64,000 nucleotides of DNA from the NCBI GenBank assembly GCA_003213135.1, contig QCNT01000002.1, forward strand, positions 1 through 64,000. Reading direction: 5' to 3'. The position numbers were made by a program, and so were the translations under genes. Source of the stretch: Pelagibacteraceae bacterium AG-426-I15. Lineage in GTDB: Bacteria > Pseudomonadota > Alphaproteobacteria > Pelagibacterales > Pelagibacteraceae. Under the pieces are notes generated by a model. It saw only the letters and a list, made by a program, of their open reading frames with translations. It was not told the DNA's origin and searched no databases. Below, piece by piece: positions 50,415 through 53,552 of the stretch. Numbering within the stretch: the first letter of the stretch is position 1; each line of letters begins with the position of its first letter.

Positions 50415-51590
50415 ATGAAATATTCAGAAATAACAAAACTCAAATATTTAGCCAAAGACGAGCAATCAAGAACAGCTAATCCCGCAATTGTAAGAAACTC
50501 TACAGTATTTTTTAAGAGTATGCAGGAGCTTTTAAAACACGAAACATTAGTAAGGAAGGGTTCAAAAGTAAATTATTATGAATATGGAAGAGGGGGGAGT
50601 CAAACAACTATTGCTCTTCAAAATTTTATTACTGAACTAGAAAAAGCACATGCTACATTCCTAACTTCAACTGGTTTTGCCTCTGTCGCGTTGGCAATAA
50701 TTAGTATTTGTAGACCAGGCGATGAAATTATAGTTACGGATGCATGTTATGCCCCAACAAGAATGATCACTTCAAAATTTATGAAAGAATTTAAAATTAA
50801 ATCTCATTTTTATAATCCAGAAGAAATTAAAAGTCTTGAAAGTAAAATAAATAGAAAAACAAAGATGATATTTGTAGAAAATCCTGGTAGCAACACATTT
50901 GAATTTCAAGACCTAAATAAGATAATTAAAATTGCAAAAAAGAAAAAAATTATTACCGCAATAGACAATACTTGGGGAACCCCATTTTTTATAAAACCAT
51001 TAAAAATCGGTTTTGATATGTCTATATCGTCTGGTACTAAATATTTTTCGGGTCATTCTGATGTTATGCTTGGAAGTTTGTCAGTTAATAAAAAAGTTTA
51101 CGAAAAGGTGAGGTCCTGCAACAAACTTTTAGGCTATAGAGCTTCCCCTGATGATGCATATCTAGTTTTAAGAGGATTAAGAACTTTAGATATAAGATTA
51201 AAAAAACATGAAGAAAATACTAAAAAAATTATTAATTTTCTGAAAAAAGAGAAAAAAATAAAAGAAATACTTTATCCTTATAAGAGGGGCACACAAAATT
51301 ACGATAATTGGAAAAAATATTATTCTGGTTCTACTGGTTTATTTTCTATTTTTATTTATAGCAAAAATAAGAATTCCGTTCTTAAATTTGTAAATTCACT
51401 TCGGCTTTTTGGTATCGGTCAAAGCTGGGGCGGTTTCGAAAGCTTAGCGTTATACCAAAGCCAAACCATTCAAAGGGTTTATAAAAAATATATAAAATCC
51501 AATCACCATATTGTAAGATTTCATGTTGGACTAGAAGATCCAAATGATTTAATTAACGATCTTAAACAAGGTTTAAAAAAAATTAAATGA
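50415..51590 (+). CDS. metC: Cystathionine beta-lyase
   Basis: A PLP enzyme of 391 residues, Cys/Met metabolism family. The Schiff-base Lys is K209 in SSGTKYFSGHSDVMLG, and the TKY-x2-GHSDVM form is typical of MetC rather than cystathionine gamma-lyase. YEYGRGGSQTT near residue 56 is the PLP-phosphate/substrate region, and GIGQSWGGFESLALY is the C-terminal loop. It would yield homocysteine for methionine. Its ATG follows the DUF2155 stop directly. Confidence 0.9.
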   Translation: MKYSEITKLKYLAKDEQSRTANPAIVRNSTVFFKSMQELLKHETLVRKGSKVNYYEYGRGGSQTTIALQNFITELEKAHATFLTSTGFASVALAIISICRPGDEIIVTDACYAPTRMITSKFMKEFKIKSHFYNPEEIKSLESKINRKTKMIFVENPGSNTFEFQDLNKIIKIAKKKKIITAIDNTWGTPFFIKPLKIGFDMSISSGTKYFSGHSDVMLGSLSVNKKVYEKVRSCNKLLGYRASPDDAYLVLRGLRTLDIRLKKHEENTKKIINFLKKEKKIKEILYPYKRGTQNYDNWKKYYSGSTGLFSIFIYSKNKNSVLKFVNSLRLFGIGQSWGGFESLALYQSQTIQRVYKKYIKSNHHIVRFHVGLEDPNDLINDLKQGLKKIK

Positions 51591-52819
51591 ATAAGAAATT
51601 TTTTCCAAACAAATTAGCTTTAGTAACTCTGGTTGCTGCATGTTTTGTAGTCAATGCTTCAATGGGGGTTAGACAAACATTTGGCTTATTCTCAAATAAT
51701 TTTGAGGTAGATTGTGGAATTTCAAATACTGAATTTGGTTTAGCGGTCGCACTACATTCTTTAGTCTGGGGTATATTCACACCGATTTTTGGAAGATTTG
51801 CTGATCAACACGGTGGGAGTAAAATAGTAATATTTGGTTTAATATGTTATTCGATTGGAATCTTCTCATTAGGTAATAATTTAAACACTGGCCTGTGGTT
51901 TCAACTTAATCTTGGTTTAATGGTTGGAATAGGTTTGGGCGCTTGTTCTGGTCCAATGTTAGCCCCTTTAGCAACGAAACATTTTCCAAACGAAAATAGA
52001 AGCAAGGCAGCAGGTTTTGTAACTGCTTTTGGAGGCCTTGGTATGTTTATGTTTCCGGCCTTATCAAATTTTTTAATTACGAAATCAGGTTGGCAAACTA
52101 CATTTACAGTTTTTGGCATGATTTTGCTTTTAATTTGCATACCAGCTTTTTTTCTAAGGAATCCAGTAACTCAAAACACTCAAAGTAATTTAAATAAAGA
52201 TGAAGAAAAAAAAGAGAGTGCTTTTCAGGTATTAAAAGAGTCAATCAAACACAAAGGCTTTAGGTTACTAATATTAGGTTTTTTTGTTTGCGGGTTTCAA
52301 ATTACTTTGGTTGCTACCCACGTTCCTAGGTACGTTCAAGATAGAGGTCTCGAGGATTGGACGGGATTTGCGATTTTATCTTTGATTGGGTTATTTAATA
52401 TTATTGGAGTTTTAATAATGGGCTATTTAGGTGATAAGTATAGTAAAAAAATACTTCTAAGTGGTTTGTATTTTTTAAGGGCAATATCCATAGGTTTATT
52501 TATATTTTTACCGCCATCTCAAATTTCTGCTTTGGCTTTTGGAGTAACTTTTGGACTTGTGTGGTTGGCTACAGTTCCAGCAACTAATGGAATTGTTGCT
52601 CAAATTTTTGGCACAAAGAACATATCTATGCTGTTCGGAATTGTATTTTTGAACCATCAAATAGGATCTTTTTTAGGAGCGTATTTAGGCGGTTTGTTTT
52701 ATGATATTTTTGGGAATTTTGACTATGCCTGGTATTTGGCAATTATTCTTTCCTTTGTCGCAACCTTACTACACCTTCCAATTGATGAAAAACCAATAAG
52801 AAGGGAAGCAACAATCTAA
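51587..52819 (+). CDS. MFS transporter
   Basis: A 410-residue major facilitator with about 12 hydrophobic helices and a central loop with charged residues (about 195-220). The loop 2-3 motif reads FGRFADQHGGSKIV, and the matching one in the second half GYLGDKYSKKILL. Sequence trends (SMGVRQTFGLFSNNF, GPMLAPLATKHFP) resemble the oxalate/formate antiporter-like (monocarboxylate) group. The substrate is unknown. It overlaps metC by 4 bases. Confidence 0.83.
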   Translation: MNKKFFPNKLALVTLVAACFVVNASMGVRQTFGLFSNNFEVDCGISNTEFGLAVALHSLVWGIFTPIFGRFADQHGGSKIVIFGLICYSIGIFSLGNNLNTGLWFQLNLGLMVGIGLGACSGPMLAPLATKHFPNENRSKAAGFVTAFGGLGMFMFPALSNFLITKSGWQTTFTVFGMILLLICIPAFFLRNPVTQNTQSNLNKDEEKKESAFQVLKESIKHKGFRLLILGFFVCGFQITLVATHVPRYVQDRGLEDWTGFAILSLIGLFNIIGVLIMGYLGDKYSKKILLSGLYFLRAISIGLFIFLPPSQISALAFGVTFGLVWLATVPATNGIVAQIFGTKNISMLFGIVFLNHQIGSFLGAYLGGLFYDIFGNFDYAWYLAIILSFVATLLHLPIDEKPIRREATI

Positions 52820-52886
52820 AGTTGTGGACATTTTTTTAATTGTTTAATTTAAAATTTTAATTAGAGTAAAGGTAATGGAGGAAAAA

Positions 52887-53552
52887 ATGTTTTCAAAAGA
52901 ACTAAATGAAAAACTGGACAAATATCATTTGTTAAAACATCCGTTTTATAAAGCGTGGAATGAAGGAAAGTTAAATAGGGAAGTGATAAAGGATTATGCT
53001 GAACAATATTATCAACACGTTAAAGCATTTCCAAGATATATCAGCGCAACTCATTCACTTTGCGAAGATATAAGTAAGAGAAAAATCTTGCTCGAAAATT
53101 TACAAGACGAAGAAAACAAAGATGCTGATCATCCTAAACTTTGGAAAAATTTTGCTTTGGAAATTGGAGCAGATGCTCAAGAAATAGAGACGGTCAAGCT
53201 GGATTGGTTTACTAAAGAAATGATTGATAATTTCTTTAAACAAGCAAGATTGTCTTACGCCGAGGGACTTGCCTCTCTATACACTTATGAAAGGCAAATT
53301 CCTGAAATTGCTGAGACTAAAATTCAAGGCCTTAAAAAATTCTATGGCGTAAGTTCAAAAAAAGGTTTGGAATTTTTTGAAGCACACAAAGAAGCCGATG
53401 TTATTCATAGAGTTGAATGTGAAAAATTGTTGGATAGTTTGTCTGACGATGAAAAGAAAAAAGCAGAAGAAGCTTCATTGTATACAGCAAGATATCTTTG
53501 GAATTTTCTAAGCGGAATGGTATCAAAACATAAATTACAAGTAGCAGCTTAG
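52887..53552 (+). CDS. CADD-family diiron-type oxygenase (candidate p-aminobenzoate synthase)
   Basis: A 221-residue TenA/PqqC-fold helical protein most like Chlamydia CADD, which forms p-aminobenzoate for folate by consuming one of its own tyrosines. All key residues I recall are present: metal ligands E75, H82, E135, H167, D171, H174 (DEEN, DHP, YERQ, AHKEADVIH), Y21 in HPFYKAW (matching Tyr27) and K145 in AETKIQGL (matching Lys152). YYQHVKAFPRYISATHS is the CADD core. I prefer ATG 52887, because GGAGG lies 5 bases upstream; the ATG at 52875 would include that site. The activity is inferred. Confidence 0.82.
   Translation: MFSKELNEKLDKYHLLKHPFYKAWNEGKLNREVIKDYAEQYYQHVKAFPRYISATHSLCEDISKRKILLENLQDEENKDADHPKLWKNFALEIGADAQEIETVKLDWFTKEMIDNFFKQARLSYAEGLASLYTYERQIPEIAETKIQGLKKFYGVSSKKGLEFFEAHKEADVIHRVECEKLLDSLSDDEKKKAEEASLYTARYLWNFLSGMVSKHKLQVAA

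Follow-up and report, generated by a model that had tools for sequence, protein, structure and literature searches.

A predicted self-sacrificing 4-aminobenzoate synthase that probably replaces PabABC in a SAR11 genome and in related genera

A CADD-family gene downstream of an MFS transporter

The window, that is, the whole stretch of 64,000 nucleotides of Pelagibacteraceae bacterium AG-426-I15 that was analysed, contains a gene for a predicted self-sacrificing synthase of p-aminobenzoate (PABA), preceded by overlapping genes for a PLP enzyme and an MFS transporter (Table 1). The open reading frame is real and in its longest form (52875-53552) would code for 225 amino acids. The start at 52887 appears better than the one at 52875, since relatives share an MFSK start and a GGAGG motif lies just 5' of this ATG. 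An Rfam search over the window found one tRNA and no RNA regulator of the gene, and the promoter and terminator scans gave signals at or below shuffled expectation. No folate gene adjoins the synthase gene in the window.

Table 1. Features of the locus in window coordinates. Residues are numbered along the 221-aa product (start at 52887); 47/47 means identical in all 47 SAR11 homologues.
Feature	Position	Strand	Basis
PLP enzyme of the Cys/Met type, similar to cystathionine beta-lyase; gene overlapping that of the MFS transporter	50415..51590	+	Pfam/NCBIfam; second marker of the slot
MFS transporter, directly upstream of the PABA synthase gene	51587..52819	+	Pfam MFS_1; marks the slot shared with the g3 pab operon
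Ribosome-binding site GGAGG for the ATG at 52887	52877..52881	+	Read directly; ends 5 bases before the ATG
Predicted PABA synthase gene, self-sacrificing, CADD/PabS family, 221 aa	52887..53552	+	TIGR04305, PDB matches; start by homology and ribosome-binding site
Tyr21 codon, matching the sacrificed tyrosines Tyr27 of C. trachomatis CADD and Tyr25 of NePabS	52947..52949	+	Alignment; 47/47
Glu75, putative metal ligand	53109..53111	+	47/47
His82, putative metal ligand	53130..53132	+	47/47
Tyr134 codon, just before Glu135, counterpart of metal-selecting Tyr141/Phe148	53286-53288	+	47/47; roles as reported in PMC11965152
Glu135, putative metal ligand	53289..53291	+	47/47
Lys145 codon, counterpart of amine donor Lys152/Lys159	53319..53321	+	Alignment; 47/47
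His167, Asp171 and His174, putative metal ligands (HxxxDxxH)	53385..53408	+	47/47

The NCBIfam model TIGR04305 (CADD family) matched the protein with 303.1 bits against a cut-off of 200 (E 9e-91) over model positions 1-211 of 212, and the candidate CADD-family PABA synthase proposed for this position in the preliminary description is thus a full-length member of the family. In a phmmer comparison with the PDB the protein retrieved the C. trachomatis protein CT610/CADD (1rcw, E 3e-48; 8va9, E 9e-48) and another 4-aminobenzoate synthase, 9pj4 (E 8e-44); 8va9 and 9pj4 both carry the label 4-aminobenzoate synthase. An AF2 model of modest quality built from eight sequences (pLDDT 70, pTM 0.68) has a heme-oxygenase-like helical fold, and CtCADD ranked first when this modest model was searched with Foldseek (E 1e-11, TM 0.73). 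The gene seems to be under purifying selection, with dN 0.145 and dS 2.74 in the one pair for which dS was computable (in two others it was not). Altogether, the product is a real and conserved representative of a family that is known and unusual, and it is very probably functional. Its naming is not new, as NCBI's own model would already give it.

The heme-oxygenase fold is shared by several enzymes, and the protein could in principle be a different one, for instance an oxidase similar to PqqC or the thiamin-salvage enzyme TenA. Actually, the general Pfam models TENA_THI-4 (83 bits) and Haem_oxygenas_2 (71 bits) also match it, and PqqC and TenA structures were found among the lower-ranked Foldseek matches. 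However, next to the 303 bits of TIGR04305, the identity as PqqC has to be rejected (46.6 bits against an NCBIfam equivalog cut-off of 240), that as BesC fails as well (24.8 bits against 500), and among the NCBIfam matches at E <= 0.001 there was no TenA model, the TenA signal being confined to the broad Pfam family. Together with the distribution of the sacrificial residues described below, this makes an enzyme of another family extremely unlikely.

Active-site residues and metal preference

Residues were placed by phmmer alignments to the CADD structures, the ligands of the window protein being matched to what we take to be the metal-ligand positions of CADD. The six ligands (E75, H82, E135, H167, D171 and H174) as well as Tyr21 and Lys145 fall on the known residues in these alignments and are invariant among all 47 SAR11 homologues examined, in agreement with the earlier reading of the sequence, which had all eight in place. 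The same is true of the accessory residues Tyr37, Tyr41 and Trp86. Such a match is far beyond chance. All functional residues are also kept in the four homologues over the cut-off found outside SAR11 (398 genomes of the phylum sampled). Three weak HDO relatives, on the other hand, keep the metal ligands without Tyr21, Tyr37 and Lys145, and these three residues separate the family from its fold-mates. One group (L258, L259 and L261), with about 95-98 bits to TIGR04305, retains the six ligands and has Ser at the position of the sacrificial Tyr, the Lys being replaced by Gln or Thr; we regard it as an uncharacterised sister oxidase.

The family and its chemistry are established (PMC11965152, PMC13108848), and a link between CT610 and folate had been proposed in 2007 (PMC1971073). 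In CADD, Tyr27 is reported to be lost and Lys152 to be used, and in the enzyme of Nitrosomonas europaea (NePabS, ne1434) Tyr25 is lost and Lys159 is used (Stone et al. 2025, PMC11965152). NePabS is also reported to require Tyr41, with contributions of Tyr45 and Trp99 (PMC11965152); these three correspond to Tyr37, Tyr41 and Trp86 of SAR11. By analogy with CtCADD and NePabS, on which the chemistry, activity and metal proposed for the SAR11 enzyme are modelled, a dimetal centre held by the six ligands would react with O2 and a radical would travel along aromatic residues (candidates are Tyr37, Tyr41, Trp86 and Tyr134) to Tyr21. The side chain of this tyrosine would then be excised, leaving a Gly behind, and the excised part would be oxidised to the carboxylate, with Lys145 donating the amine of PABA.

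The two characterised enzymes share with the SAR11 protein the family, the ligands and the sacrificial residues (in the case of CADD also the fold), and differ from it, each in one position, at the pair related to metal preference. Tyr134 is the residue found in CADD (Tyr141), where NePabS has Phe148, and Phe163, located just upstream of the HxxxDxxH motif, is the one found in NePabS (Phe177), where CADD has Tyr170. This Tyr/Phe pair was present in 47/47 SAR11 homologues and in three of the four homologues outside SAR11, the remaining one (G375) having Phe/Phe. The same pair is created in the NePabS variant F148Y, described as similarly active with Fe/Fe and Mn/Fe (PMC11965152), so that the SAR11 enzyme looks like a natural counterpart of this laboratory variant. 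The correspondence suggests that it would accept either Fe/Fe or Mn/Fe, a flexibility that, if true, would suit iron-poor water. CADD is reported to use Mn/Fe and also to act on host cells (PMC11965152), and the SAR11 host is in contrast free-living.

PABA genes in the genome

The genome (G000; 976,624 bases in 19 contigs, 88% complete) contains a dihydropteroate synthase (DHPS, 287 bits against 163), so PABA is needed. The profile searches for Chorismate_bind and Aminotran_4 found neither PabB nor PabC in this 88% complete assembly. The only protein with a Chorismate_bind domain is TrpE (556 bits against 518, and below every PabB cut-off listed), whose gene is followed by that of TrpG and by two more that, from their position and length, were assigned to trpD and trpC, and the only one with Aminotran_4 is IlvE (484 against 396 bits). 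With only TrpE and IlvE found, canonical PABA synthesis was rejected for this genome; a complete PabABC set, named in the preliminary description as evidence against its proposal, was not found. Taken by itself, an assembly of 88% completeness may lack a pabB or pabC that the organism does have.

We consider it highly probable that the gene codes for a single-turnover, self-sacrificing PABA synthase that would feed DHPS and replace PabA, PabB and PabC, a prediction by analogy with the characterised enzymes. Reconstructions that score these genomes as PABA auxotrophs for their missing pabB would then have to be corrected.

PABA could still be made canonically if TrpE produced aminodeoxychorismate and IlvE or another aminotransferase acted as the lyase, the CADD-like protein doing something else. 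Homologous enzymes can be promiscuous, and TrpE, TrpG and IlvE are all present. But TrpE scores over the cut-off for anthranilate synthase and under those for PabB, and its gene is arranged together with other trp genes. If TrpE were enough, the genus g3 and the family f2 would need no second enzyme. This scenario, which would also leave unexplained the strict exclusion and the shared slot described below, is in our opinion most improbable.

Distribution across Pelagibacterales

Within its own genus (g1), 21 of 31 genomes match TIGR04305 over the cut-off, and a partial match was obtained in G006. Among 247 Pelagibacterales genomes, 36 gave some match and 32 were over the cut-off and free of internal stops. 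These 32 and the partial G006 were counted as gene-positive (33 genomes), leaving out the weak G080, G092 and G196. Two weak matches, L139:5610-6335 in G080 (74 bits) and L140:4953-5630 in G039 (38 bits), a genome that also carries the gene itself, are probably other heme-oxygenase-like oxidases of SAR11.

A second Chorismate_bind protein (PabB) was found in none of the 33 gene-positive genomes, 31 of which have one such protein and two (G224 and G246) none. Among the 214 gene-negative ones, 143 have at least two, 64 have one and seven none. The contrast (0/33 against 143/214) gives a Fisher's test value of 1e-14, although related genomes are not independent and the association rests on few evolutionary events. 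DHPS was present in 48 of the 49 genomes tested.

The gene-positive genomes belong to g1, g2, g4, g5 and g6, five Pelagibacteraceae genera of the sample. The gene is absent from the largest genus (g3, probably Pelagibacter) and from family f2, where pabB and an adjacent pabC occur in the genomes examined. The proposal that SAR11 uses a single-use PABA protein is therefore supported for this genome (PabB and PabC absent, DHPS present) and for the five genera, with the gene present and PabB absent, and does not extend to g3 and f2. One g6 genome (G239, 88% complete) had no match to the gene and a single Chorismate_bind protein. A class IV aminotransferase of g2 (G031) was rejected as PabC, being over the cut-off of a D-amino-acid transaminase subfamily (PRK06680, 340 against 320). 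Furthermore, one g4 genome (G084, 96% complete) has DHPS and neither the single-use gene nor PabB. At its locus (L312:6417-8065) the HU gene lies directly beside serC, and a relative has the single-use gene between the two. This genome may be a candidate for a natural PABA auxotroph, and as it shows neither of the known routes, PABA may in some SAR11 be imported or obtained in another way.

PMC11965152 lists the family for Wolbachia, Rickettsia, Chloroflexi, Sphingomonas and Nitrosomonas, and SAR11 is not among the groups named there. Our literature search, with subscription papers mostly outside its reach, found no publication linking SAR11 to this enzyme, and as far as it goes the pattern of apparent replacement of PabABC in SAR11 is new and the only characterised examples of the enzyme are those of an intracellular pathogen and of an ammonia oxidiser. 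SAR11 are very abundant bacteria of oceans and lakes. An enzyme that works only once would seem a waste, and still entire genera of these abundant, free-living bacteria with streamlined genomes appear to depend on one for folate. In the preliminary description the protein cost was proposed to be balanced by three saved genes, which may fit a small genome.

A chromosomal slot shared with the pab operon

In both g1 and g6 the single-use gene comes after the pair of PLP enzyme and MFS transporter. Among 80 named loci, all of SAR11 and the best 80 of 245 confirmed ones, the MFS gene was directly upstream in 77 and the PLP-MFS pair in 75, and CADD, MFS and aprM occurred together in 32. In the window, representing the g1 variant, the order PLP - MFS - CADD is followed by a gene of opposite orientation for an M23 peptidase. 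The g6 order, assembled from L143, L171 and L172 (L143 has one extra gene between MFS and CADD), is mnmA - 233-aa gene - PLP - MFS - CADD - 126-aa gene - aprM - aprB - aprA. In four g3 genomes (G033, G035, G045 and G056) it is mnmA - PLP - MFS - pabB - pabA - pabC - HIT - aprM - aprB - aprA, two of the four loci having one small gene of opposite strand between mnmA and PLP. The coordinates of the MFS, pabB and Aminotran_4 genes fit the same order in a fifth g3 genome (G041). Here mnmA was identified from its Pfam domains, and the genes downstream in g3 and g6 are what we take to be aprM, aprB and aprA. AprA was not found in G000, an incomplete genome, in a search run without a positive control. 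The MFS protein of the window is 53-69% identical to that of g6 and 54% to that of g3, and the PLP proteins of the window, g3 and g6 are 59-60% identical among them.

The PLP-MFS pair lies upstream in both cases, and in g3 and g6 the apr genes follow downstream, so that the same slot is occupied either by one single-use gene or by a pab operon of three genes. This positional evidence is the strongest for a replacement of PabABC. The g3 proteins PabB-PabA-PabC (L124-L126) would give the same product by means of three unrelated catalytic proteins that start from chorismate, instead of one single-use protein. Searching the four g3 loci with tblastn for CADD remnants gave nothing better than E 0.44 (positive control 1e-115). 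According to the preliminary description the adjacent gene is no folate gene, which is true to the letter for the window and misleading, as the same upstream pair is followed in g3 by pabB-pabA-pabC. CADD, different from the SAR11 gene in this respect, is clustered with other folate genes; such clustering is reported for Chlamydia (PMC11965152) and, being absent in N. europaea, is not a requirement of the family. Closely related SAR11 genera with either system in the same slot represent a natural experiment, in which one can test directly what each system costs, which metals are used and why lineages switch.

The transporter gene upstream also bears on the possibility that the lineage imports PABA and that the single-use gene is a relic or has another purpose, as does G084, which keeps DHPS with neither route. 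We find this very unlikely, because the same MFS gene precedes pabBAC in g3, a genus equipped to make PABA itself, and because the purifying selection, the full conservation of the residues and the lack of internal stops in the over-cut-off matches of 32 out of 247 genomes of the order argue against a relic. By weak matches below the cut-offs, the MFS protein of the window, upstream of both PABA systems, is of the lactate/oxalate type. Another recurrent neighbour is a 126-aa cytidylyltransferase-like gene (L171:3710-4090), found immediately 3' of the CADD gene in 33 of the best 80 of 245 loci.

In g2, g4 and g5 the location is different: the gene is flanked by an HU gene on one side and by serC-serA-serB on the other, and mnmA follows a few kilobases downstream. 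In these loci (L133:6393-11142, L134-L136 and L142) it is directly upstream of the ser genes, which feed glycine and one-carbon metabolism. The N. europaea single-use gene is reported to sit beside glyA (PMC11965152). A search for serC in seven genomes of g1, g6 and g3 gave no match, which agrees with the auxotrophy for serine/glycine that is reported in SAR11 subclade I (PMC10030771).

Evolutionary direction

In 21 genomes, a tree based on eight proteins (3,122 columns) and rooted on f2 joined g1 with g6 (support 100) and these with g3 (100), and also grouped g2, g5 and g4 (55). In the gene tree the SAR11 sequences came together (92), with g4 outermost, then g2 and g5, and then g1 and g6 mixed. 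The orders of the species and gene trees would fit one arrival of the gene before the family split, followed by its loss in g3. The PabB of g3 did not group with that of f2; the g3 branch is very long and the supports are weak. We prefer the reading in which g3 regained a pab operon, although the PabB tree cannot prove the origin of the operon, and an ancestor that had both routes may instead have passed on one or the other by differential loss. More generally, and as a tentative model that we hold with less than even confidence, the PABA step might be an exchangeable slot, in which the ancestor of Pelagibacteraceae would have replaced PabB/PabC by a single-use enzyme and the ancestor of g3 would have replaced this in turn by a divergent pabB-pabA-pabC, the SAR11 enzyme being naturally capable of using Fe/Fe or Mn/Fe.

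One of the g3 genomes (G056) has pabB split in two ORFs of 117 and 192 aa with in-frame stops, on a single contig (L138:4409-5559). Its pabA and pabC are intact and the CADD gene is absent, and the split pabB could reflect gene decay, a frameshift or an error of sequencing.
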